Assembly (NCBI RefSeq): GCF_025698545.1
Contig: NC_068569.1
Location: 4,340,001-4,404,000, forward strand
Length of the DNA: 64,000 nt
Source: Gossypium raimondii
Taxonomy: Eukaryota > Streptophyta > Magnoliopsida > Malvales > Malvaceae
Direction: 5' to 3'
The first letter of the stretch is position 1. Each line of letters opens with the position of its first letter. The notes beneath the pieces are model-generated. The model saw only the letters and a program-made list of their open reading frames with translations. It made no database searches and was not told the DNA's origin. Made by a program: the position numbers and the translations under genes. This document shows positions 8,822-64,000 of the stretch, piece by piece.

Positions 8822-9809
8822 TTATTCAATCTGAATAATGGTTGCATGAACATGGTCATGGCAAAAGGAAGGTTTCTGAAAGATTTGGTTCGGAAAATTC
8901 AGATAGCCTTAAATAGCAACGATTGTGGAGATGTCAGAGAAGCAGTTAATCTTCTAATTTCTCCACCCAAGTGCCAAGGATAATTTTTTTTGGGGGGGGG
9001 GGGGGGGATATCAAAACTGGCAGTGGAAACAATAACAGTATAACGGTTCAAATTTTAAAGAAAAAGTAGGAAAAGTAGTATAATAATTTGCAGGTACGAG
9101 TAATAGTAGCGGAGCATACCATGAACTGATCGAGCTCTTTGTCATCACCAACCAAGCCTTGGGCCCCACCACCCAGAGCCGAGTACTTAGCCACCACATG
9201 CAGTGACTGAGCCAGCTGAGCGTCGATCCGCGGTAGCTGATCCACAGGCGTGGCGATCCTCAGGCACGCCACGTGTGCAGACAATAGTTGCTCGTATAAC
9301 GGGTGGGCTAGTACCTCCGCCTTGTACCTTGCATTCTGCCAATTCACAGCCCCATCACCTCCTCCTCCGCTTTCCACTGCTAAACCTTCGCTCTTGTTGT
9401 TGTTATTCATTGACTCGCTGTTGCTGCTCTTCAATTCTCCCGATTCCACGGTGACCATGGTTTCCATACCAACTCCTCCTCCTCCTGCTGCCACCGCTGC
9501 CACGTCGTCGACGACGCCACTGTGATTACGTTGAAGACGCGAAGAGGATGAAGGGGAGAGCCACTGGTTGGGAGCTTGGGAAGCCGAGGTTGACTCGGAA
9601 GCGGTTGTAGCAGTATGGAGGTTAAGGAAGTTAGGGTCTGAGAAGTGAGCATGGGGTTGCGTTGGTTGAGACTCCTGCTGGGAACGGAGGAGAGCTATGT
9701 TTAACCAATTGGGAGCTGTGGTTCCCGGTAGTTGGTTCGTTTGTTGTTGTTGGACGGTGAAGTGATGAAGAGGAAGGTCTTGAGAAAGATGGTTGGGGTG
9801 AAACGCCAT
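7144..9809 (-). CDS. KNAT3: class II KNOX homeobox transcription factor, KNAT3-like
   Basis: Five exons on the minus strand: 9809-9120, 8041-7921, 7828-7635, 7565-7434 and 7284-7144, together 1278 nt and 425 residues, close to Arabidopsis KNAT3. The start [12 protein letters not shown] matches the family N terminus. KNOX1 lies at about residues 157-200 ([20 protein letters not shown]), KNOX2 at about 215-270, ELK at about 325-350 (ELKHELKQ then [12 protein letters not shown]) and the TALE homeodomain at about 350-413, with the three-residue PYP loop extension and recognition helix [13 protein letters not shown]. An intron splits the homeodomain just after PYPT, as in KNAT3. Class II KNOX proteins are nuclear, pair with BELL proteins and act in organ differentiation. 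Intron 1 (1.08 kb) holds an AT microsatellite and a G run. All catalytic and DNA-contact positions look intact, so the gene should be functional. Confidence 0.97.
8788..8819. repeat. (AT)16 microsatellite in KNOX intron 1
   Basis: Alternating AT for 32 bp inside the first intron of the KNAT3-like gene. It is likely to vary in length between accessions and is a ready marker. Confidence 0.95.
8992..9007. repeat. 16-base G run in KNOX intron 1
   Basis: Sixteen consecutive G residues directly preceded by eight T residues on the plus strand, about 110 bp inside intron 1 from its 5' splice site (a C run in the transcript). Homopolymers of this length are prone to replication slippage and to assembly error. 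Confidence 0.9.
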
Positions 9810-10060
9810 GTAGCCCTCTTTACCTTCTTTCTTTTTTCTTTCTATAAAACGTATTCGAAAGAGAGATACGATGAAGAAGCTGATGAAGACGACGATGATT
9901 ATGAACTCATGGCCTGATTAATTGAAAGAAAGAGAAAGAAAGGGTGGAAAATAATAGTCTCTTTTAAGAGTCTCGAGTTGTGGAGTTCAAGAAATATTTT
10001 TGGCATTCCTACTTCCTAGAGTGGGTGTTGGAGAGCAAACAAAGGTGATGGATTTAAGGA

Positions 10061-22339: not shown

Positions 22340-24218
22340 ATCTCCACCTTGACACGAATTCTTAACGAACAAAATTTTCACCTCTTCCATAAAACCTCTT
22401 AAGGGTTTAACTTCAACAATGAACACCAACCAAGTCTAAGTAATGTTCAAACTTGGTTATAGGAAGTGACTTAGTCATCATATCTGTCGAATTTTTATGA
22501 GTACTAATTTTGCTTACAACAATATCACCACGAGCAATTATATCACGAACAAAATGATACCAAACATTAATGTGTTTTATTCTCTCATGAAACATTTGAT
22601 CTTTTGTAAAGAAGATGACACTCTGACTGTCACAAAATACTATACTGATTTAAAGGTCTTTATTGAGTTCACTAAAGAGCCCCTTCAACCAAATAGCTTA
22701 TTTACAAGCCTCAGTAATCGTCATGTACTCAACTTCAGTGGTAGACAAAGCAACTATAGTTTGCAAAGTGGCTTTCCAACTGATTGCACAACCTCCGATT
22801 GTAAGACATAACCTGTGAGAGATCTTCTGCTATCAAGGTCTCCAGCAAGATCAACATCAACATACCCAATGACTTCATCTCTAATTCTTTCAAACTGTAA
22901 GCACACATCAGTAGTACCTCGTAAGTATCTTAAAATCCACTGAACTGCTTTCAAATGTTCTTTACCGGGATTCGCCATGTATATGCTAATTGCACTGACT
23001 GCATATGATAAATCTGGACGTGAACAAACTATAGCATACATGAGAGATCCCACTGCACTAAAGTATGGAACATGTGACATGTACTCAATCTTATCATTTG
23101 ATTGTGGAGACAAAGCCGATAAAAGCCTGAAATGGGATGCTAAAAGAGTACTAACAGGCTTAGCACTTTGCATATTGAACCTGCTAAGAACTTTCTCAAT
23201 GTAACCCTTTTGACTTAGATACAATTTACTTGCTTTTCTATTTCTAAGAATCTACATACCAAGTATCTTCTTTGTTGGTCCCAAATCTTTCTTATCTCAA
23301 ATTCTTCACTTAGTTGGGTTTTGACCTTTCTTATCTCTACTTTATCTTTTGCTGCTATCAACATGTCATCAACATAAAGGAGTAGGTACACAAAAGAACC
23401 ATCATTATTTTTCTTAAAGTAAACACAACTATCAAAACTACTTATTTTGAAATCATGAGTAGTCATAAAGGAATCAAAACTCTTGTACCACTGTCTTGGT
23501 GATTGTTTCAAACAGTAAAGGGACTTTTTCAGCAAGCAAACATAGTCCTCTTTTTCTAAGACTGTAAAACCCTCTGGTTGTTACATGTAAATATCCTCCT
23601 CAAGTTTTCCATGCAAAAATGCAGTTTTTACATCTAACTGTTCAAACTTTAAATCATTTATGACCACAATACCAAGCAAAGCTCGAATCGAACTATGCTT
23701 CACAATCGGGGAGAACATATCTGTGAAGTCTACTCATGGAATTTGACTGTAACCCTTTGCAACAATCCTTACTTTATATATGGGTTCTTCAACTCCTGGA
23801 CTCACTTCTTTCTTTCTAAACACCCATTTACAACGAACCGTCTTTTTACCTTAAGGAAGTTTCACAAGATCCCATGTTCTACTTTTATGGAGTGATTCCA
23901 TCTCCTCTTACATAGCAAACATCCACTTTTCTGAGTCTTCATAGGTAACCGCCTCAGAATAATTAGATGATTCTTGGTTTGCATCTATATCTTCAGCCAC
24001 ATTTAAAGCATAAGCAACTAGATCAGCCTCGACATACTTCTTTGGAGGTTTAATTTCTCTTCTAGTTTTGTTTTTGTCGATAGAGTATTGTGGTAAAGAA
24101 GCAACTTTATTCTAAATTTTTGTACTGGCTTGAGGAGTTGACTCTGTTGTAGATTCTGGTTTAATCTGATGCTCCACCTGCTTTTGATTTTCTTTATTGG
24201 AAGAGTCTTTAAGAGATA

Positions 24219-31082: not shown

Positions 31083-31450
31083 GAAGTAGGGTCATTTACT
31101 CAGTGTGATATGTTTCTAGGTATTAATGTTGTGCATGTCTAATCCGAAAATGTTGTTTAGACGATCCATAATATAGCCATGTGACTACTTGTCTAATTTA
31201 GTTTTATTGTTGTTAGCACTATTATCATTTTTAATTAAAAAGAAAAGAAAAGAGATATAGAGGGTCTCATGTCCTAACTTAAATGAATGAAATAGCTTTT
31301 ATAATACCATATAATATGTTTGATGCACTATTTCATAAATGGGATTGAAGTATTTATTTATTTTACTTAAATTCTGAAAAGTTAATAGAACAACAATTTA
31401 GACCAATTTTTTCCAGGAAAATTAATAGCATTCTCTGGAAATGAAAGGAA

Positions 31451-31768
31451 AAAGACTATTGAAGACTCAAAATTGATATTTATTTAGGGTTTTAACTTTT
31501 AATATAGTAAAACAACATGCCAACAACATCCCTTGACGAACATTTTCACATACTAATTCTTAGCATATTTATTAGGAAAGCGTAAAGCATCGAATTTTAC
31601 AATAAATGAAAAGACTATTGAAGACTCAAAAATTGATATTTATTTACGGTTTTAACCTTTTAAGATAGTAAAACAACATGCCAACAACATCCTTTGACGA
31701 ACATTTTCACATACTAATTCTTAGCATATTTATTAGGAAAGCGTAAAGCATCGAATTTTACAATAAAT
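31451..31768. repeat. 159-bp tandem direct duplication
   Basis: Two head-to-tail copies, starting AAGACTATTGAAGACTC and ending TTTTACAATAAAT, with period 159 bp and only a few differences (for example AGGGTTTTAAC against ACGGTTTTAACC). No coding sequence or terminal repeat is visible in the unit. The high identity suggests a recent duplication. Confidence 0.9.
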
Positions 31769-32495: not shown

Positions 32496-35440
32496 ATGAA
32501 GAAGCTTCTACAGCTGTTTCTTTTCCTCGTTTCACTTATTTTTACTCATGAAAACATGATTGTTGTAGCCGTACCAGGCCCTCTTGCTTCCTCTTTATCC
32601 CCCGTTTCATCGCCCTTTTCTAGTCCCATCTCTGCTTCAATGTCTGCCTTTTCTCCAGGTAGTACTACTTCATTTTTGGTCATGAATGTAACTGCCCATT
32701 TCCTTCCTTTTTTTTTTTTTTTGTTTCTAGTCTGTCAACTAGTGGACATAAAACACTTGTTTTTTTTCGACCGGCTAGTTAAACGACGGTCTTATCACAG
32801 TTCAAATTTCCATTCGGTGCATTTAATATTATTTTGAATGTGGACAGTGTTCGTTTTGCTTCATGGAAATCTTACCCAGTTTATAAACAACCTTTTTTTT
32901 AAAAAAAGAAAATATTTTTGAACTTGGTGGAAGCTTTCCTTTTTTTGTTGTTTGATATCCTAAAAAAGTTGTATTTTTGACTCTATGAAGTGGTTAATGG
33001 GATAGCAGGATTTCAACTGGGAAGTGAAGAACACACAAAGAAGGATCCACCCAATAAAATGTTAATCGCTATCATTATTGGTTGTTGTTCCTTGGGTGCA
33101 ATTATCTGTTCGTTGTTTTGTTTATGGATTTATTACAGGAAGAACTCGCACAAGTCCACCACAAACGATGCTAAGAACTCAGGTAACAGCCCATACCCTT
33201 TCAGTTTTTCTTCATAGTTCTGGAACCATGAGAGCTTGGGTTTAGGACTGATAATTTCCCCTGCTTCTTCGTTGTGGTCTTAAATTTGAAGATGCTGAGA
33301 AAGGGAGTGGTTTGGCACCATTTTTTGGTAAATTCAAGGCTACGAGGACGGTTTCTAAAGAGGGTTCTGCTTCATTTATGGAGTATAAGACACTTGAAAA
33401 ATCTACAAACAAGTTTCATCAATGTAATATTTTGGGTGAGGGTGGATTTGGGTGTGTTTACAAGGCTCAATTCGATGTTGGTTCTTTTGCTGCTGTTAAG
33501 AAGTTGAACTGTGCAAACCAGGATGCAAAAAGAGAATTTCAGGTATTATTTTTTATGGAATTCTTTTCTTTTTTTTTTTCTTTAAAGAAATTTATTAGTT
33601 CCTTTTATGTGTTGAGTTATTGTATGGAATTGCAGAATGAAGTGGATTTACTATGTAAATTTAAGCATCCCAATATAATTTCGCTGTTGGGTTTTAGTAG
33701 TGAAAACGAGATGAGGTTTATTGTATACGAATTGATGCCAAATGGTTCTTTGGAAACACAATTACATGGTAACTTTTTTCTCTCCCCTTACTCTCATAAA
33801 CAACTTAAGAAATCAACACTACAAAAAAATGTATTAATTTTGTTTCTGGAAAATTTTAAATTATATCGCAGGACCTTCACGTGGATCGTCATTAACTTGG
33901 GATATGCGGATGAAAATTGCTTTGGATACAGCAAGGTAAGGCTTTGTTTTGAATTTTCACTTATTCCTCTTAGATAATGAGTATATTCTTTAATAAATTT
34001 TAAATGTTGACCAGAGGATTAGAGCATCTGCATGAACATTGCAATCCACCAGTCATCCATAGAGATCTGAAATCATCTAATATTCTTTTGGATTCAGCCT
34101 TCAATGCTAAGGTAATAATTGTAGTGTAAATCATTAGACCTCCTACACTTTTTTAGTATACTTTGCATTATTATTATTATTATTACTGCTGGACGTTCAT
34201 TACTAATGCCCTATATTAAGCCTATTGAAGCTCACATTCTGTCATTATGGCTCCATACAGCTTTCGGATTTCGGACTTGCAGTAACTGATGCAGCCCAAA
34301 ACAAGAATAATTTGAAGCTTTCGGGAACTTTAGGCTATGTTGCTCCTGAATACCTTTTAGATGGTATACTCTCTGCACTAATTAGCTCTCATTTTCTGAT
34401 CTTAATAAATATATGGGCTATAAGACAGCTGCACTAATTTTTATTTCTCTTTCATACTATTGGCTTCAAAGGGATCTGGGAATGGCATATCAGCACTCAT
34501 TTCACTTTCAGTATGAGTGAAATGAAGTTCATAACTCTTTTCATAAGAAGCTTAAATGCATTATCTGGTTTTGTAGGTAAATTAACAGATAAGAGTGATG
34601 TGTATGCTTTTGGTGTTGTGCTGCTGGAACTTATATTTGGAAGAAAGCCTGTAGAAAAACTGGCACCAGCTCAGTGCCAATCTATTGTCACATGGGTAAG
34701 TATGCCTTGCTCTTATGTTAGTTCAGGTTAAAAAAAGAAGAAGAAAGAGATTAAATGTTTGAAAAGCCATATTATTATTGAATGCAGGCTATGCCTCAGC
34801 TTACTGACAGATCTAAACTCCCTAGCATCGTGGATCCTGTGATACGAGATACAATGGATCTAAAACACTTGTATCAGGTTGGTAAGCTGCTAGTGAAAAA
34901 AATGTACTGTGAGTGTCATTACTTGGTTGGAAACTTGATTTTTATTCTAAAACCCAAATTTGACTTTATTTTGTTGTCTGCTGTGTCAGATAAGTCTTAC
35001 TGGTTAGGTTAGGTAGGAACGAGTGAACTGAGAAACACCCATTCTTTCAGTTTGGAGACTGATTTTCTTTATTTTGCTTAATTTGACTTTGTACCCCTTT
35101 AGAATGAAGATTCCTGAGCAAGCAATCACATAGAAAAATTTGTCCATTGCTCTTATTAGGCTTGACTATGCATGTCCTTGGGCTGAATTATTGCCCTCCA
35201 TTCTGAAAAAGAAAAGATGAAAGGTTGTAGCTTTCAGTCACTATCACTAAAGATCTGCTTAATGCTTTGCTAATTACATAGTGGAATCGTGATATGCAGG
35301 TCGCTGCTGTGGCTGTGCTATGTGTGCAACCCGAACCAAGCTATCGTCCATTGATAACTGATGTGCTCCACTCGCTTATCCCTCTTGTTCCTATGGAGCT
35401 TGGAGGGACTCTAAGAGTTACACAACCTGCAACACCTTAA
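32496..35440 (+). CDS. receptor-like protein kinase, At1g80640/At5g11020-like
   Basis: Ten exons: 32496-32658, 32991-33182, 33292-33542, 33636-33768, 33872-33935, 34015-34111, 34261-34363, 34577-34695, 34788-34877 and 35300-35440; 450 residues with frame kept throughout. Residues 1-25 are a signal peptide, 26-54 a Ser/Pro-rich short ectodomain, 78-103 a membrane helix, and the rest a cytosolic Ser/Thr kinase. Key residues are present: glycine loop GEGGFG (167-172), Lys188, HRD with catalytic Asp285, LKSSN with Asn290, SDFG with Asp303, and APEYL. It should therefore be active at the plasma membrane. The ligand is unknown; the ectodomain is too short for LRR or lectin folds. The exon 3 acceptor appears shifted by 3 nt compared with the downstream paralogue. 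Confidence 0.92.
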
Positions 35441-36602
35441 CCCTACAAACTTCCTCTCGTGTGTCGACTGTCTCCAAATCAAGTATTTGATGATTCCATG
35501 TAATCCCGGGCTTTGCCTCAATTAAATCACACATGCACATCAGTTCCATTGCCCAGATTTGATGATAATTTATACCGCAAAGTGTAGTCGGTCGAGCTGG
35601 TGTGGAGGATTTTCTGATTGTTGTTGATATCCTTTGTAAATTGCACTATATTCGGAATGCTTTCTTTATACAGCAATTTTAGATTCATGCAACGATAATT
35701 TAACAAAATTTTGCCTTTGCTGTCCAAATCAATTGAATATGGCTAAAAGGATCGGTAAATCTACAAGGAGCAGAGGAGATATGATGATGTAAGCGTTAAT
35801 TTAGTGCATATTAGGTACACCTGCATGGGAATTGAAAGGCAAAAGAAGAAGAAAAAAGTATTTTGTGGAAATTAATGGGTTATTTATTTTATTTTTATGG
35901 CTCCCACAACTACAAAGGTGACGAGATTTGCAACGTAAACGTGTGCATTAGTTACTAATCGCCATATTAAATCAAATCACCATAGTGATTTAATATAGTG
36001 ATTTGATTTCTTCATCACTATGGGTGGGAATGGGATGTAATTAATAAAAACGTGTTGCATTGATATCACCATTGATGGGATGCAATAAACACAAACAGCA
36101 ATTAAATGGAATTGAGAGGATATTCTTATAAAATCTTTGATTGACTAATTGCTGCAAAATAAAATAAAATCTTTACTTGTTGTAAAAGAGAAAAAAAAAC
36201 CCAAAATTTATGGACTCTTATATAGTCTCTGGTTCTAATTCTTATCCTTGTGTCTTTAATTTAATGGCGGCTTTCTCTTGAGGCGCGCTCTATTTCTTTG
36301 ATTCCCTCTAATATCGTGCTTTATTTCTGGAAGGAAAATGGCTGCCTAATCAATCAAGTTTCCTTTAATATGTATTTGAAATCTATTATACGCTGGCTGG
36401 ATGAGAAAAGACTTGGTTTCCTTGATTGTATTCCATAAATGGATCAAATCCCAGTTTATTCTCTCATAATTGTTGGAGATTTCACCTCTTTTATCTCCGA
36501 AATATTAAATTTACTCGGATTTCAAAAGGCATTTTCCTGGAAAATTTCACCCTTTAAGTTCATATCCTTTGGCAAGTTTCATCTTTTGAGTACTGAAAAA
36601 AA
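35441..36602. other. spacer between the two tandem kinase genes
   Basis: About 1.2 kb with the 3' UTR of the first kinase gene and the promoter of the second. It contains a short inverted repeat, AAATCAAATCAC (35969-35980) and GTGATTTGATTT (about 35998-36009). No gene is visible. Confidence 0.6.
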
Positions 36603-38573
36603 ATGGATCCAATACGCAAGAAATTGCTCATAGCAGCATTTACTATACTTTGTTTTTCATTTACTGCAATTTTATTGTCTTTGGTTTGCTTGTGGAAGAT
36701 TCATAGGAAGAAGAAGAAGAACAATTCAGAAAAACTACTTACTCAGGCTGATGACCACAGCCTTGGTATGTGTTATTAGTCAAAATTAACGTTTGATTTG
36801 TATTATATTTTGTGAATGTTATTATTATTATTATTATGGTCTAATTACTTCATGTTTTGGTAGAAGATGCTGAGAAGGGGGTTGCATTATCACCATCATC
36901 ATTCTTTGCTAAATGCAATTCATTGTGTACACTGTCACTCAAAGGATTTGCTTCATTTATTGATTATAAAATGATTGAGAAAGCTACTAAAAATTTCGAT
37001 AAAATCAACATATTGGATGAGAGTGGATTTAAACTTGTTTACAAGGCCATACTTGATAATGGTACTGAAGTTGCTGTGAAGAAGGTGTTTTGCTTAACTA
37101 AGGGTATACAAAGAGAATTTGAGGTATTACTATTGAACTACTTTTTAAAACATTTAGAACCCTTTTTTGTTGTTGTTTTTCTGATTATGCTGTAATGCTT
37201 GCAGAATGAGGTGAAATTATTGAGCAGATTTCATCATTCCAATGTAATTTCTTCTTATGGATATAGCATCGAAAATGAAACAGGGTTTGTTGTGTATGAA
37301 TTGATGCACAATGGTTCCTTGGAAACTCAATTGCATGGTACAAAAATTTTCCACCTTTGTTTAGGAACTCCTTTTTTTTTTTTTTTTACTAACCCAATTC
37401 TCCCTCTTGATTTTAGGACCATCTCGTGGTTCTCAGCTAAGTTGGCATAGGCGACTGAAGATAGCTCTTGATATAGCAAGGTGAACATTGGGCAGTGAGC
37501 TTTCTAGATTTTACTTATTATAATATGATTTTAAATAATGTTTAATATCTTGACTTGTTTGCTCAGAGGATTACAGTATTTGAATGAGCTCTGCATCCCA
37601 CCCATCATCCATAGAAATTTAAAACCCTCGACTATACTATTGGATTCCAACTTCAATGCTAAGGTAAACAATGTCAAATGGTGTAAAACAAAATCAACTA
37701 TTGAAATGTGTGAGTGTAAATTTATTTGTGCAGTTGGTACTAAATTCTTGGGTTTGCATTAAGATATTGCATTGATATTTTGGTGAGCTTTGGTTTCTTT
37801 CTCATCATTTGTATGGGATCCAGATCTCAGACTTTGGTATGGCCGCTGTTGTTGCTGGTGGTGGTGGTGGCAAGGAAGGCGGGCTTAGTAGAAGTCTTAA
37901 CTTTTTGGGCAAAACAGGCCCAATAGCTCCAGAATCCATTTTGAATGGTATGCTCGTAAAATTAATTTTCATTGGTTCTTCATAATCTTTCGACAAGATA
38001 CTATAATTACAAAAATTTGTCACATTTGCTGCTACTGTACAATGATCTTGTTAGGTGAGACGCTTACCTGTTTTTCCAGGTATATTAACAGATATGAACG
38101 ACGTTTATGCTTTTGGTGTTATACTTTTGGAACTTGTATTAGGAAGAAAGGCTTTAGAAATGTCGGAAGTATCAGGGCAGGAATGCCTTGTAAGATGGGT
38201 ATGTCCGCGCCTGCTCCTACATTTATTCGCTGTAAGAATGTCTGGATTTTAGTACATTTAATATTGTCATTTATGAATCCAGGCCAGGGCTGTGCTCACC
38301 GACAGACATGTCATGCCCAATGTTGTGGATCCCGTGATCAGAGGCACCATGAGTGTCAAACACTTAAACCAGGTTGGCCTAAAAGTTAAATTTGGTGCTA
38401 TCAAAATTCATCCAGACCGAGCTGATATCATATATGCTTACTACATTCAGGTTGGGGTGATAGCTTATCTATGCCTTGAAGACGAGCCAAAATATCGCCC
38501 ATTGATAACCGACATTTTGAACTCTCTGGTCCCTCTTGTTCCCGTGGGGCTTGGAGGGACATTAATAGTTTAG
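36603..38573 (+). CDS. tandem paralogue of the receptor kinase, predicted pseudokinase
   Basis: Nine exons: 36603-36765, 36864-37123, 37205-37337, 37417-37480, 37567-37663, 37824-37947, 38080-38198, 38283-38372 and 38451-38573; 390 residues, frame intact, no internal stop. It matches the upstream kinase gene exon by exon but lacks the signal peptide and ectodomain exon; instead residues 7-32 form a membrane anchor followed by a Lys-rich stop (HRKKKK). Active-site changes are severe: the glycine loop is DESGFK (106-111) instead of GEGGFG, the HRD Asp is Asn224 (HRNLKPST) and the metal-binding Asn is Thr229. Lys127 and the DFG Asp242 remain. A seven-residue Gly-rich insertion follows DFG, and APEYL has become APESI. 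An open frame with these changes suggests a scaffold or regulatory pseudokinase, though slow decay of a redundant copy is also possible. Confidence 0.85.
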
Positions 38574-39119: not shown

Positions 39120-42260
<3,141 letters not shown>

Positions 42261-43642
42261 CTGGAAATCTAACAACAAGAATGTCAGTCAGATGAGTAGT
42301 TGATTGAACCCTAAACTTTAACAATGTGAATTTGGGAGGGAGAAAGGAGATGAGTGGGGTTGGGTTCGAAAGGAGGTGAGCTCTCACTTAAGAACGATCT
42401 TAGAGGAATAAAGGGGCGATGAGTTCGAAGCGAAAGCTCGTGATGATCAAAATTCAAAACTGGGTCTATTTATTATTTATTAAGCTAAAAAAAAAAATAG
42501 TTAAAACCGTGAAATGGTGTTGGAATAGGAAACCGCATGCGTGCTGTCACTAGCGAGATTGTGATTTGTGAAGGGGTAGTAGACTTAACAGTGGGGCATA
42601 GTCATTTGCCACATGTCATTTGATAGGAAGGTTATATCGTTCACCCGGATCAGATCTGAATGGTTCAAGATTGATGATCGTGTCCGATGATGGATTCATG
42701 ATGTCTACAGAAACAACAAACTCCAAATGTTAATTGGCACAATGACTGTTTTTTACGCCCTTTTTATTTCGATTTGTTATTTGATATGCTGGTGAACGGG
42801 ATTAAAATATAATCATATATCTCATTTATTTATTTATTTTTAAAATATCAATTAAGTACATTTTGGTGGTTCCTTTATGAAGAAAATATCACAATAATTG
42901 AATAAATAAAAAATCCTAATCTGGGTTTTCTTTGTAGTCTAAATCAGCGAGAGCTGTTGGAATTGGAATCCATAGGATATAGAGACCGTGTGCTCTGATG
43001 ATAATATGATGCTGATATCGTGACCTGACTCAGACATGAATGGTTCAGATTTGACGATACTGTCTGATGTTGGAGTCACAAAAACTACTATAAATGTCTA
43101 ATCTGCCACTGATTCATACATGGAACTGATGACGGTAAGCATCATGCAATATCAACAACGATAAAATGCCCAACATCTGTAACCAATGACCTCTCTCAAG
43201 TTTCTCACAAAATAGCTACCGACAATGCACCATTCATCAAGTAGCACGTTCGTGATTTCAATTACAACATAAAGAACACAATGCCATCTCTGGCGACGTC
43301 ATTTTGATCGACTACGATCATTCTCATACTTCACCAGGCAAAAGAAATTGAAACAAGCGACCATGATTATGCTTAAATCATCCTAGAATATCCCATGATT
43401 TCCTACTCAAACCAAAACTTAAATCCAGAACTCTTTAAAAAGAACTCATATAGTTGAAACAAAACCTGAATTCAAAAGATTATCTTTAAACCTAACCCAT
43501 ACAAGTTCCTCACACAAACTGGAATTTACTTCATTCAAATACAAACCCACAAGTTGTGGATAATCTATTTCTTTAACTGTAACCAAGTAAACTAAAATTA
43601 GTCACAAATCAAGCTACGAAACACAAACAACAACCAAGAACC
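42261..43642. other. intergenic region upstream of the aminotransferase gene
   Basis: About 1.4 kb between the ASP5 start and the 3' end of the RPL39 pseudogene, both on the minus strand. The first 200 bp is the ASP5 5' UTR and promoter. Words such as GATCGTGTCCGATGATGG near 42677 and TGACGATACTGTCTGATGTTGG near 43052 recur with the phrase CTGAATGGTTC or GAATGGTTCAGA, suggesting an old degenerate direct repeat. No gene is visible. Confidence 0.5.
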
Positions 43643-48404: not shown

Positions 48405-49062
48405 ATGGCTAGACCGCAACAACGATATCGAGGTGTCCGACAAAGGCATTGGGGTTCTTGGGTTTCTGAAATTCGCCATCCTCTTTTGTAAGTTAACTTG
48501 TGTTTCGTGAACCCTGAACATTACAGCTCTTCAGGCATGGGTTTTCTCTTCCTTATGGGTACTAACAGAAGCGTTTGGTTTATGCAGGAAAACTAGAATT
48601 TGGCTGGGAACATTTGAAACGGCAGAAGACGCGGCTCGTGCCTATGATGAAGCTGCAAGGCTTATGTGTGGACCCAGGACTAGAACTAACTTCCCTTACG
48701 ATCCCAATGCACCTCAGTCATCATCATCCAAGCTGCTCTCAGCAACTTTGACAGCTAAACTACATAAATGCTACTTGGCTTCACTTCAAATGACCAAACA
48801 ACAATCAGTGCAGGAGCCAAAAAGTGAGCCACCGACTCCACATATCATCACCAACAATGGCATTGCAGATAGAGGTAGTGAGACGGGAGTTCGCCTGCTG
48901 GAGAAGAGACCATTGCCAGTTCAAGAGACAGAGGCCAATTGGGTTGTCAAGAAAGCTCAAGTAGAAAGAACCCAGCCGTTCAAGTCTCTTGAAGAGGATC
49001 ACATTGAACAAATGATTGAGGAACTGCTTGACTATGGCTCCATTGAAATATGCAATGTCTAG
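48405..49062 (+). CDS. SHN: AP2/ERF transcription factor of the SHINE (WIN1/SHN) clade
   Basis: Two exons, 48405-48487 and 48588-49062; 185 residues. The intron falls within the AP2 domain after HPLL, a position typical of this clade. The AP2/ERF domain spans about residues 7-65 and has [39 protein letters not shown] and TNFPY. The middle part ([20 protein letters not shown]) and the acidic C terminus ([19 protein letters not shown]) match the conserved SHN motifs. SHN proteins are nuclear activators of cuticular wax and cutin genes. Length and C terminus fit Arabidopsis SHN2/SHN3 better than WIN1/SHN1. Both motifs and frame are intact, so the gene is probably functional. Confidence 0.96.
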
Positions 49063-58487: not shown

Positions 58488-61335
58488 TGTAACACCTCTT
58501 ACCCGAGACCATGGCCGGAGTCGAGCATGAGGCGTTACTTGACTTAACTTAAAAGTTCGGGGCATAAAAATTTACTTTCAAATTTAATTTCATCATTCAT
58601 AATAAAGCTGTCCTCCTGTACAGCAGTCACTAAAATAATTATAATTCAAGCTACGAAACTCGAAATTTAGATCCGTAAATTTTCCATAAAACTAGACTCA
58701 TATATCTATTCACCATAAATTTTTCAGAATTTTTGCTTTAGCCAATTAGTACAGTTTATTAGTTGAAGTCTCCCCTGTTTCACTAATCGACTATCCTAAC
58801 CACTCATCACTAAAATTTAATTATCTCTTATTAAAGGCTTCATATGGTGATTAAAATTATTTCTACTGAAAATAGACTCATTAATGAGTCTATACATATA
58901 AATTATAACTCAAAATTCCTTTTGTACAATTTTAATGAATTTCTAAAGTCAGAACAGGGACTTCAAAACATTCTTGCCCTGTTTCACTAAAATTCAAATA
59001 TCTAAAAGTATATAATTCTTTTGCTTACTCCACTTCTTTCCTATGAAAGTAGACTCTTTCAGCTTTAATTTCATATCTCACTCAACTTCTAATTCTATTT
59101 CCACTATTTTTGGTGATTTTTAAAAGTTACATCAATGCTGCTGTCCAAGAACTGCTCCATTGCAATTTTTAAAAAAAATTCAATATAACCCCTTTATAAT
59201 TGTCTAACCTTCCCTGCAAATTTCAAATCACAACCAATTCCAGTATTTCATCTACTTCATTTAAATACTAATGAAGTTCAACCAATCAACCATTTCAAAC
59301 TAAAAACATGTATATATTTCGATATCTAACGCAACCGTAACATTCAAATTTACTTTTACTTCAATTCCCTATACATGCCATATAAATCCAAAAAGTTGCT
59401 TAACATAAACTACCGGAGTATATCTGGGTAGTGTGATTCTTGATGTAGATCCGATCCTCCGAATGTATAAATACGTTAATCTACAAAAACAATAAACACA
59501 CACATGTAAGCTTATAGAAAAGCTTAGTAAGTTCATAGGCATAAAACATAAATCTTACCAAACACTTGTACACTTATACAATATACACCATTACTAAATT
59601 TACCATCAACCACAATCTTTGGTGAGTTCCTTGGTATAAACTCACTACTACTTATTCTTTACCATAATTCCTTTGGGCCCATTTGCCACTTACCATCCTT
59701 GATCAAAATTAAGGAGCAGTTATGGAAATTTGAGTACTTCACTTTCACTTTGCCATATGACCTCTTATCACTTGTCCTTGATCGATAAGTGTAGCTAGGC
59801 TACCACTTATCACTTTACCACTTGATCGAGATAAGTGTAGTGAAGCTACCACTTATCACTTTATCACTTGATCGATAAGTGTAGCCACTTATCACTTTGT
59901 TTCTTGATCGGATAAGTGTAACCACTTATCACTTTGTTTCTTGATCGATAAGTGTAACCACTTATCACTTTGTTTCTTGATCAGATAAGTGTAGCTAAAA
60001 CTACCACTTATCACTTTGTCACTTGATCGAAGTACTCAAATCCGAAGCGTTCCACTTAATTTGATTATTTATTCGATTTTCACATTTTTATTTTATTCTC
60101 ATTTCAACAATAAATACATTTCACCATACATTGTATAATTCATGAAATTAACATTTAATCATTAAATTTCAGCCATATGAACTTACGGATCGATTTGCGA
60201 ATTTGTAAAAGTTCGGGACTAATCGGCTACTTTTTCTTTTCCTCGACTTGTTTCAAGTTCTCGATCTAAAATGCAAATTTATTCATTCATCAGCATTTAA
60301 TTCAATTCTAATTCATTTCACAATTTATGCCCTTTAATTTTCGAAATTACACTTTTACCCCAAACTTTACAGTTTTACAATTTGATCCCTACTCAATTAA
60401 CCCTCAATTGATCTAATTTTCTCAATTAACACCTTTTCCAACTATTTTAGACTACTACATAGCCTTTCATACTCAAAACCGCAACACCAAACCTTAATTC
60501 CCAACTTTTTCACAATTAGGTCCCTAAAATCAATTTCTATCAAAATTACTTAATAAAATCATCATATAACAAAATTAAAGCTTCAATTTCATGTTTATTC
60601 ATCATAAAAATCCAACACTAATCAATGGTAACTTTCAAAATCAGCCATGGAATCAAAAACTAATGAAATAATTAGTTGGACCTAATTGTAAAAGTATCAA
60701 AATCACAAAAATTAGAAGAAATAATCAAGAATTAAACTTACATGATTCAAAAATATGAAAAACCAGCTTATTCCAGACCTCCTATGGCGTTTTTGCTGAT
60801 TAATTGTGAAGAGATCTCTAGATTTTTCACTTTTGTCTTTGTTTTAAATGTTTAATTTGTTAAGTTTCCAATTTTGCCCCTGTTTCTCCTTACATTCTGC
60901 TGATTTTTCTTACCCAACCGTCCAGCCCATATAATTTGGGCCTAATAGCCTTTTAAATCCCTCCACTTTAGTCACTTAAGCTATTTAATCACAATTTAAC
61001 AAATTTTACACTATTCCCAATTTAGTCCTTTTTAGTTAATTAACTATCCAAACGTTAAAATTTTCTAACGAAACTTTAATACCAACTCAATGACACTCTA
61101 TAAATATTTCTAAAAATATTTATGGCTCGGTTTAAAATCTTCGAGGTCTCGATACCTCGTTTTTTATTTTAATTATTTTAATATTTATTCCTAGTACACT
61201 ATTCACTATTTCAAAAATTTTCCTAACTTCACATTTAACTTATACTTACTAAATTTATAATATTTTCTACTCGTTTGTCAGATTTAGTGATCTCGAATCA
61301 CCATTCCGACACCACTAAAAATTCAGGCTATTACA
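58488..61335 (-). repeat. 3' LTR of the gypsy element (2.85 kb)
   Basis: Minus-strand start TGTAATAGCC (at 61335) and end GGTGTTACA-type (at 58488; plus strand TGTAACACCTCTTACCC), so TG...CA ends. It is homologous to the solo LTR at 24219-26963, clearest near both ends (for example GAGTCGAGCATGAGG here against CTCGTGCTCGACTC there). Unusually long for a plant LTR, which matches a known class of large gypsy LTRs in cotton. Confidence 0.88.
59779..60027 (-). repeat. six-unit tandem repeat with palindromic core inside the gypsy LTR
   Basis: Six units of 36-46 bp, each starting TTGATCGATAAGTGTA-like and ending CCACTTATCACTTTG-like (plus strand). GATAAGTG and CACTTATC are reverse complements, so each unit forms a hairpin. 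Units 3-5 are nearly identical (about 36-37 bp); units 1, 2 and 6 have a longer loop. Confidence 0.9.
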
Positions 61336-61336
61336 A

Positions 61337-61351
61337 CTCTCCCCCCCTTTT
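61337..61351 (-). other. polypurine tract of the gypsy element
   Basis: AAAAGGGGGGGAGAG on the minus strand, one base before the TG of the 3' LTR. This is the expected site for priming plus-strand DNA synthesis and fixes the LTR boundary. Confidence 0.85.
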
Positions 61352-64000
61352 AGGAAATTTCGTCCCCGAAATTTCGTACCTGGAAATAAATTCGGATACT
61401 GAAATCTCATCAATTCCTCCGTTTCCCAGGTTGCCTCCTCAGATCCATGTCGATTCCATAACACCTTAACTAGTGGTACACGTTTATTCCTCAACTCTTT
61501 AACCTCCCGAGCTAAAATTTTCACCGGTTCCTCTGAATAAGTCATGTCAGGTTGGAGCTCTATTTCCGTATGAGGAATTACATGTGATGGATCTGATCTA
61601 TACCGTCTCAACATAGACACATGAAACACATTATGAATATTTTCAAGTTCCCGGGGCAAAGCCAATCTATAAGCTACCGGACCGATTCTTTCAATGATTT
61701 CATACTACCGATAAATCGTAATGAGTTTTCCTTTCTGCCGAACCGCAAAACTTTCTTCCACGGTGACACTTTCAAAATACACGATCACCCACACTAAACT
61801 CTATATCCCTTCTCTTCAAATCTGCATATGATTTTTGCCGATCGGAGGCGACTTTTAAACAATCTCGAATAATCTGAACTTTTCTTGATTTCCGAATCAA
61901 GTCCACTCCCACCGTTTGATTCACTTAATTCAGTCCAATATAATGGAGTTCTACACTTTCTTCCATACTGAGCTTCAAGCGGTGCCATTTTAATACTAGT
62001 TTGATAACTATTATTATAAGCAAATTCGCTAAAGGTAAATACCTTTCCAATTGCCACCGAACTCAAGTATACAACACCTTAACATATCTTCTAAAATCAA
62101 TCACTCGCTCGATTGCCCATCCATGCAGGGATGAAAAGTCATCTTGAAATTTAATTTGGTGCCCAGAGCCTCCGTAATTTACTCCAAAATCTCGAGGTAA
62201 ATCTCGGATCTCGATCCGAAATAATAGATATCGGTACCCCATGTAACCTCACTATCTCGAGACACATATAACTCCGCTTAACTTTTCAAGTCGATAACTG
62301 CTTACATTGGAATAAAATGTGCCGACTTAGTTAACCGATCAACAATCACCCATATCGAATCTTTCTTCTTCGGAGTTACTGGTAATCCAGATACAAAATC
62401 CATCGTGACATGTTCCCATTTCCACTCTGGAATCATAATGGGCTGTAACAACCCTGTCGGCACTTGATGCTCAGCTTTCACCTGTTGACAAATCAAACAT
62501 CTTGCTACATATTCACAGATTTCTCGTTTCATTCCAGGCCACCAATACATTTTCTTCAAATCACAATACATTTTTGTACTCCCCGGGTGAATAGAACACA
62601 TACTACTGTGAGCCTCTGATAAAATATCATTTTTCAAGTCTAAATTATTTGGAACACATATTCTATTACGATAATATAACATACCATTTTCATCAATGGA
62701 GTATTCTGAGCTTAACTCATTTTGAACCATCTGTCGTTTTAGCATCAATTTTGGGTCTTCATCTTGTAATTCCGAATCCGTTGAAAGAACACGGTTTAGC
62801 TTTTAATTCGCTAGTATAGAACCATCCTCATTAATAGATAAATGAGCACTCAATGCCCGTAATGCAAATAATGATGATTTCACTAAGTGCATCTGCTACG
62901 ACATTTGCTTTCCCCGGTGATAGTCAATGACAAGATCATAATCTTTCAAAGAACTCTAACCATCGTCTCGTCTCAAATTTAACTCTTTCGAGTCATTAAA
63001 TACTTCAAGCTTTTATGATCGGTATACACGTAACACTTCTCACCATATAAGTAGTGTCTCCATATTTTCAAAGCAAACACGATCACGCCAATTCCAAATC
63101 ATGTGTAGGATAATTCTTCTCGTGCGGTTTCAGGTTGTCGGAAGCATATGCCACCACTTTTCCTGACTGCATAAGTACACAACCCAAACCACTCAGAGAC
63201 GCATCACTATATACTACAAACGGTACGCCCGATTCTGGTTGAGTCAACACTGGAGCCTCTGTCAACATCTTTTTCAACTGATCGAAACTCTGCTGACATT
63301 CGTCTGACCATATAAATTCAACATTCTTTTGTAGTAATCGAGTCAACGGTAAGATAATCATTGAGAAATCTTTGACAAATCGGCGATAATAACCTGCCAA
63401 TCCTAGAAAGCTCCGTACTTCAGTAACATTCTTTGGAACTTTCCAATTTACCACTGCCGCTATCTTACTTGGATCCACTCTTATTCCATCAGTTGATACC
63501 ATATGACCCAAAAACGCAACTTCCTGAAGCCAAAATTCACATTTGCTGAATTTCGCATATAACTGTTTCTCTCGCAAAGTCTGTAATACAATCCTTAGAT
63601 GTTGTGCATGTTCGGACTCTGTCTTTGAATAAACCAATACATCGTCAATGAACACAACCACAAATCTATCCAAATATGACTGAAAAATTCTATTCATCAA
63701 ATCCATAAAAGCAGCAGGAGCATTGGTTAAACCAAATGGCACCACCAAAAATTCATAATGACCATATCGAGTTCGAAAGGCAGTTTTGGGCACATCACAC
63801 TCTTTAACTTTCAACTGATAATACCCAGATCGAAGGTCTATCTTGGAAAATACTGCAGCACCTTTCAACTGATCAAACAGATCATCAATACGAGGCAAAG
63901 GATATTTATTCTTTACCGTTACCTTATTCAACTGCCTGTAATCTATACACAGTCTTAAAGAACCGTCCTTCTTTTTCACAAACAAGACAGGTGCACCCCA

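Follow-up and report, generated by a model that had tools for sequence, protein, structure and literature searches.

A predicted pseudokinase with a membrane anchor and no ectodomain, in tandem with an intact receptor-like kinase in Gossypium raimondii

Pseudokinases are common among plant kinases, as 168 of 1005 predicted Arabidopsis kinases (about 17%) have been called pseudokinases (cited in PMC6907349), and their working mode in plants is described as little known (PMC11259431). Here we examine a tandem arrangement of an intact kinase and a degenerate relative in a 64,000-nucleotide stretch of cotton DNA (G. raimondii, NC_068569.1, here contig 5, positions 4,340,001-4,404,000), referred to as the window, whose numbering is used for all feature coordinates given without a contig. 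Within the window, a canonical receptor-like kinase of 444 amino acids (gene 1, 32496..35440, plus strand) is followed by a predicted pseudokinase of 390 amino acids (gene 2, 36603..38573, plus strand) that has lost both its ectodomain and several of the residues required for normal catalysis. The reading we favor, with slightly less than even confidence, is that gene 2 encodes a retained, membrane-anchored pseudokinase that probably acts, without catalysis of its own, as partner to an active kinase.

Among described systems, the Arabidopsis proteins ARLPK1 and ARLPK2 lack an ectodomain, carry a membrane segment overlapping the predicted signal peptide and are located at the endoplasmic reticulum; both have a degenerate glycine loop and HRD motif, keep DFG, and showed no detectable autophosphorylation (PMC4848489). 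AKIK1, an active receptor-like kinase with an ectodomain, associates with ARLPK1 and not with ARLPK2 (PMC4848489). Compared by description, the ARLPKs resemble gene 2 in having a membrane anchor, no ectodomain, a degenerate glycine loop and HRD motif, and the DFG Asp; unlike gene 2, they are encoded by separate genes, At5g61570 and At5g07620, which that account does not describe as tandem neighbors of AKIK1, and their VAIK motif is altered whereas VAVK is intact in gene 2 (PMC4848489). Gene 2 shares the N-terminal membrane segment without an ectodomain, with some room left for an unseen upstream exon, and departs from the ARLPKs in its intact VAVK. It is not filed here as an ARLPK, though by analogy it may work like one.

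The animal receptor HER3 (ErbB3), which has an ectodomain, offers a further comparison. Like gene 2, it is a membrane pseudokinase with Asn in place of the catalytic Asp, and it allosterically activates its kinase relatives; unlike gene 2, it keeps the metal-binding Asn171 and binds ATP (PMC4718504). In plants, ZED1 and the ZRKs are likewise clustered pseudokinases, ZED1 carrying Asn in its HRD motif (N173), yet they are cytoplasmic members of receptor-like cytoplasmic kinase (RLCK) family XII, form a cluster of eight, and include ZED1, RKS1 and ZRK3, which work with ZAR1 (PMC6634424). The N-terminal hydrophobic segment of gene 2 sets it apart, by description, from these proteins, which have no membrane segment. 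The BRASSIKINs BKN1 and BKN2 are also tandem-linked predicted pseudokinases found at the membrane and lacking the glycine loop and HRD, but as described they are lipid-anchored RLCKs, both predicted to be inactive, without VAIK or DFG, and confined to Brassicaceae (PMC6907349). Finally, in the tandem kinase-pseudokinases typified by Yr15/WTK1 a kinase adjoins a pseudokinase, as after duplication, but within one polypeptide (PMC6170490), whereas gene 1 and gene 2 are separate and lie 1.16 kb apart.

The initial annotation placed the pair between 32496 and 38573, and these positions are indeed the first base of gene 1 and the end of the gene 2 stop codon. Rebuilt from raw sequence, gene 2 consists of nine exons (36603-36765, 36864-37123, 37205-37337, 37417-37480, 37567-37663, 37824-37947, 38080-38198, 38283-38372 and 38451-38573) joined in frame by eight GT-AG introns, without a stop, a frameshift or a broken splice site. 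The exon structure and sequence said to be shared by the two genes are shared: exon 1 of gene 2 is homologous to exon 2 of gene 1 and its other eight exons to gene 1 exons 3-10, five of these eight pairs being identical in length (133, 64, 97, 119 and 90 bases), and the proteins, both above the Pfam kinase cut-offs, align with 54% identity across 389 columns (BLASTP E 9e-137). A kinase fold is predicted for gene 2, which matches Pfam PK_Tyr_Ser-Thr (1e-33; PF07714, 117.2 bits against a cut-off of 23.1) and PF00069 (102 bits against 31.7), its PF07714 score falling below that of gene 1 (117 vs. 156 bits); among the best 60 of 2162 matches to solved structures, SymRK and RIPK rank at the top.

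Exon 1 of gene 2 (36603..36765, plus strand) encodes the predicted membrane anchor and a basic juxtamembrane stretch, the hydropathy profile reaching its maximum of 2.43 around residue 12. Values above 1.6 recur in a second window that begins near residue 370, within the kinase domain. The start Met aligns with an internal Met (KMDP) in exon 2 of a paralogue on contig 7. The proposal that a simple anchor had replaced a secreted ectodomain calls for correction: the ectodomain is missing, but the anchor is not new, being the homologue of gene 1 exon 2; what has gone is exon 1. In the 1,162-base spacer between the genes (35441-36602), no convincing counterpart of gene 1 exon 1 was found, the best protein match having an E of 1.1 and the best DNA match an E of 0.029 over 28 bases. 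An in-frame TGA (36594..36596, plus strand) starts nine bases upstream of the gene 2 ATG. The bases 5' of this ATG were considered as a remnant of exon 2 and the idea was dropped; since they align no better than chance (shuffled sequences did as well in 353 of 1000 trials against the contig-7 copy and in 453 of 1000 against gene 1), the TGA is not claimed as a remnant of the old exon. With a stop codon of its own in gene 1 (35438-35440), the spacer, and this TGA in the frame of gene 2, the locus does not encode a single tandem kinase-pseudokinase protein. Scans for bacterial-type promoters and terminators and a search against Rfam gave nothing above expectation.

The relatives of the pair were sought in the 750.8-Mb assembly of 281 contigs, seven large ones of which measure 53-63 Mb; the last exon of gene 1 has eight matches there (all 29 candidates scored). 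Five of these were used for codon analyses, namely gene 1, gene 2 and paralogues at contig 7 50.16 Mb, contig 5 9.49 Mb and contig 6 57.93 Mb; the other three (contigs 10, 11 and 13), with 63-67% identity and a different exon layout, entered the analysis only as outgroups for the protein tree. The three paralogues share the exon pattern and have intact motifs; their reconstruction covered exons 3-10 alone and used a script that takes stop-free exons near the reference length, such that their openness is partly by construction. The family thus comprises four intact members, gene 1 included, and one pseudokinase. No second gene 2 was seen among the 57 matches that its N-lobe gave with 150 of 743 candidates scored; outside the locus, the best of these are the contig-7 copy (48%) and gene 1 (50%), followed by matches on contig 8, on contig 5 at 1.98 Mb and on contig 7 at 52.38 Mb. 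Two of the latter, on contig 8 and at 52.38 Mb on contig 7, were considered as further copies of gene 2 and rejected as kinases of another type with intact motifs. A whole-protein search of the genome (106 of 2074 candidates scored) was dominated by single-exon kinases. In the other intact family pair, on contig 5 at 9.49 Mb and contig 6 at 57.93 Mb, the glycine loop reads GEGGRG for GEGGFG in both copies, Arg replacing the usual aromatic residue.

Gene 1 has, as the initial annotation held, every catalytic residue (GEGGFG, AVKK, HRD, N, DFG and APE). Gene 2, in a full open frame as described, has DESGFK (residues 106-111, 37016..37033, plus strand) in place of GEGGFG, and a catalytic loop reading HRNLKPST (residues 222-229, 37610..37633, plus strand), in which the catalytic Asp has become Asn224 and the metal-binding Asn has become Thr229. 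All three signature glycines, the catalytic Asp and the metal-binding Asn, kept in the four intact members, are therefore missing from gene 2, which keeps the beta-3 Lys (VAVK, as VAVKK), HR-LK, DFG and APE. The 10-residue segment before APE is rewritten, and the seven-residue glycine-rich insertion reported after DFG is real and lies about 10 residues past that motif (37866..37886, plus strand, its exact placement being arbitrary within the Gly run). Since it abuts a (TGG)5 array (37856-37870, at the lowest score listed), replication slippage would be a simple origin for it. Gene 2 falls within the bioinformatic definition of a pseudokinase, the loss of at least one of the glycine loop, the VAIK Lys, the HRD Asp, Asn171 and the DFG Asp.

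Of the 201 columns invariant among the four intact members, gene 2 retains 135. Losses are more frequent across the glycine loop, catalytic loop and activation segment, where 20 of 42 such columns have changed, than elsewhere (46 of 159; Fisher p 0.027, for regions picked after the alignment had been inspected). In a leave-one-out control, each intact gene retains 201 of the 209 to 215 columns that are invariant in the other three. Because the signature glycines and the metal-binding Asn are gone, HRD reads HRN and the segment before APE is altered, the domain is predicted to be unable to transfer phosphate by the normal route.

The idea that a pseudokinase is being maintained here finds support in rates of substitution within this genome, where a ratio of nonsynonymous to synonymous substitution rates (dN/dS, omega) near 1 is rejected for gene 2. 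Pairwise dN/dS between gene 1 and gene 2 is 0.25-0.28. In a branch model of the 324 codons that all five genes share, omega on the gene 2 branch is 0.34 (profile 95% about 0.23-0.51; p 3e-6 against 1) and 0.138 on the rest of the tree, and two other codon topologies place the gene 2 value at 0.30-0.31. Net purifying selection has thus acted over the gene 2 branch, and neither of the marks of a pseudogene, frame breaks or an omega near 1, is seen.

Evidence on the age of gene 2 comes from contig 7, where the paralogue at 50.16 Mb sits in a block collinear with the window, as seen from fourteen stretches (140 kb) compared around it. Order and orientation are the same for a gene at 4 kb in the window, one of KNOX type at 9 kb, a segment at 28.6 kb, then gene 1 and, at 48 kb, an AP2/ERF-type gene. 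Out-of-order matches between window and contig 7 (near 11.5, 16.7, 17, 22, 24 and 56 kb) were excluded from the comparison as probable repeats. The block presumably arose by whole-genome duplication. Gene 2 was not found in it: across the 16.4-kb interval in which it would be expected, the best protein match reaches 21.6 bits (E 0.59), barely above the 20.8 bits (E 1.2) of a reversed-sequence control, and the best DNA match to the gene 2 region spans 24 bases within its upstream spacer (E 0.001, uncontrolled). A weakly similar kinase lies about 50 kb beyond the interval and is 40% identical to gene 1 and 31% to gene 2. Synonymous divergence (dS, Nei-Gojobori) is 0.35 between gene 1 and the contig-7 copy, 1.03 between gene 1 and gene 2, and 0.97 between the contig-7 copy and gene 2; at 78 four-fold degenerate sites common to the three, the corresponding differences number 25, 40 and 33. 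Bootstrap resampling under a codon model places gene 2 outside the gene 1 pair in 0.78 of replicates, with the contig-7 copy in 0.21 and with gene 1 in 0.009. Because dS between gene 1 and gene 2 exceeds that between the block copies, gene 2 probably predates the block duplication and was then lost from contig 7, an age that is supported, not proven.

Taken together, these observations suggest the following account. Gene 2 would have arisen from gene 1 by an old tandem duplication, probably before the copying of the block to contig 7, and it would have lost the signal-peptide exon and come to start at a Met that is internal in its paralogue. Its product, if made, would carry a membrane anchor followed by a basic juxtamembrane stretch, with a predicted kinase-fold domain facing the cytosol. 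This domain, which keeps the beta-3 Lys, the alpha-C segment, DFG and APE, would most likely work by binding and not by catalysis, as the signature of the fold is kept and a membrane anchor is present while the residues for phosphate transfer are lost. It would then pair with a receptor-like kinase that is active, for which gene 1 and its contig-7 copy are the leading candidates, and change the activity of that partner or the formation of its complexes without contact with the cell exterior. For the suggestion of the initial annotation that gene 2 may serve gene 1 as a scaffold or dominant partner, ARLPK1 with AKIK1 is a close precedent, though nothing here favors gene 1 over another kinase as the partner. 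The effect could have either sign: EFR activates BAK1 non-catalytically, a mechanism open to such a domain (PMC11259431), and BIR2, which competes for BAK1, provides an example of the opposite (PMC10868138).

Several results weigh against reading gene 2 as an old copy under continued selection. The codon-model support for the older placement is just 0.78, the best protein tree joins gene 2 to the contig-7 copy (bootstrap 50), and the approximately unbiased (AU) test rejects none of the four placements of gene 2. At the 58 four-fold sites common to the five genes, gene 1 differs from gene 2 at 30 and from each member of the older pair at 29, near-equal counts that point to synonymous sites close to saturation. 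The gene 2 branch is moreover about twice the sister path at the synonymous scale (2.2 vs. 1.07), although third-position GC content (GC3) is similar (0.37 vs. 0.32-0.38 in the other family genes). Omega for gene 2 exceeds that of the family (p 8e-5), constraint having therefore relaxed, and the branch includes time as an active kinase, such that selection since the motif losses is not isolated. The loss of the 5' exon points the same way. An unlikely alternative is that gene 2, having lost catalysis and the ectodomain exon, is in slow decay and keeps an open frame only because its release was recent. The raised omega (0.34 vs. 0.14), the missing exon 1, the in-frame TGA just upstream and the slippage-type insertion all accord with such drift, as does the contig-7 block, which has no gene 2: provided that gene 2 is older than the block, one copy could be dispensed with. 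Omega nevertheless lies far below 1, and 390 codons and eight introns have accumulated no stop, frameshift or broken splice site. For a normal kinase that was then free to drift, our own arithmetic indicates that an omega of 0.34 needs about 23% of the branch to be neutral, or about 0.5 substitutions per codon, at which the probability of no stop is 6e-5 to 1e-4 before frameshifts and splice sites are counted; at 0.3 or more neutral substitutions per codon it is about 0.004 or less. A recent release, at 0.10 substitutions per codon or fewer, passes this test (probability of no stop 0.14-0.16 or more). It is this calculation that gives force to the earlier argument from the intact nine-exon frame, which on its own is weak evidence of selection.

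A retained pseudokinase might also serve in immunity, either mimicking active family members that pathogen effectors target or connecting these with an immune receptor, in the way that ZED1 and RKS1 work with ZAR1. Clustered pseudokinases of this kind, ZED1 and the ZRKs, provide the precedent (PMC6634424), and the retention of 135 family-invariant columns is what a mimic might show; even so, we hold such a role to be improbable, as the ZRKs belong to RLCK XII and form a cluster of eight, whereas gene 2 is membrane-anchored and single-copy among the matches scored. More doubtful still is an atypical kinase in which nucleotide binding or weak activity is left, given the beta-3 Lys and the DFG Asp. 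Here the retention of VAVK, HR-LK and DFG can be set beside HER3, which also has Asn for the catalytic Asp and yet, as described, has an affinity for ATP of about 1 uM and autophosphorylates weakly (PMC4718504). However, HER3 and the JAK2 JH2 domain both retain the metal-binding Asn171 (PMC4718504), the position occupied by Thr229 in gene 2, where the three signature glycines are also gone and the segment before APE is rewritten. Because HER3 retains the Asn that gene 2 lost, nucleotide binding by gene 2 would be possible but less likely.

Gene 1, also rebuilt from raw sequence, has ten exons (32496-32658, 33009-33182, 33292-33542, 33636-33768, 33872-33935, 34015-34111, 34261-34363, 34577-34695, 34788-34877 and 35300-35440, plus strand), all introns being GT-AG, and no internal stop, and it matches Pfam Pkinase at 3.9e-47. 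Exon 1 (32496..32658, plus strand) encodes, by hydropathy, a signal-peptide-like stretch and a short Ser/Pro-rich stretch that is all the ectodomain gene 1 has. We take gene 1 to belong to the Arabidopsis At1g80640/At5g11020 group, probable receptor-like kinases with short ectodomains. Four Arabidopsis locus tags attributed to this family appear in no title or abstract of the papers found to mention them, and one paper bearing one of the tags applies it to a different gene. A table in a cotton salt-tolerance screen gives GH_A10G2054, with AT5G11020 as best match. About 0.7 kb upstream of gene 1, a 161-base unit occurs in two tandem copies that are 96% alike (31450-31768).

On its other side, gene 2 is adjoined tail to tail by exons on the minus strand (39471-42287) that resemble an aminotransferase, presumably an aspartate aminotransferase. 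Two of these exons find no match across the 140 kb of the contig-7 block, and the gene may have been lost there along with gene 2. A KNOX-type homeobox gene (9048-9917, minus strand), presumably KNAT3-like, and an AP2/ERF-type gene (48511-49062, plus strand), presumably SHINE-like, have collinear copies on contig 7 at dS of 0.53 and 0.56. Open pieces at 22754-23580 and 61315-62802, both on the minus strand, read by eye like what we take to be Copia-type and Gypsy-type retrotransposon polyprotein, respectively.

In the titles and abstract openings of part of the cotton literature mentioning pseudokinase, no such cotton gene is named. As pseudokinases are common, duplication can be expected to yield one in tandem with an active relative; gene 2 illustrates the plant pseudokinases well but is an ordinary case and introduces no new principle. 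What the locus provides is a likely sister and candidate partner in the next gene, in a genome with three more intact relatives, of which one occupies a collinear block that has no pseudokinase. A stronger proposal, which we regard as unlikely, would make gene 2 a built-in regulator of its neighbor that the lineage has retained, forming obligate heterodimers with the active sister and tuning a family of receptor kinases with short ectodomains, for which no described function was found; were it true, one of two paralogous copies would adjoin its regulator while the other, in the sister block, would not. With the candidate partner adjoining and intact relatives available, one of them in a pseudokinase-free block, the gene 1 and gene 2 locus is a clean natural comparison for asking whether a dead copy regulates its live relatives.

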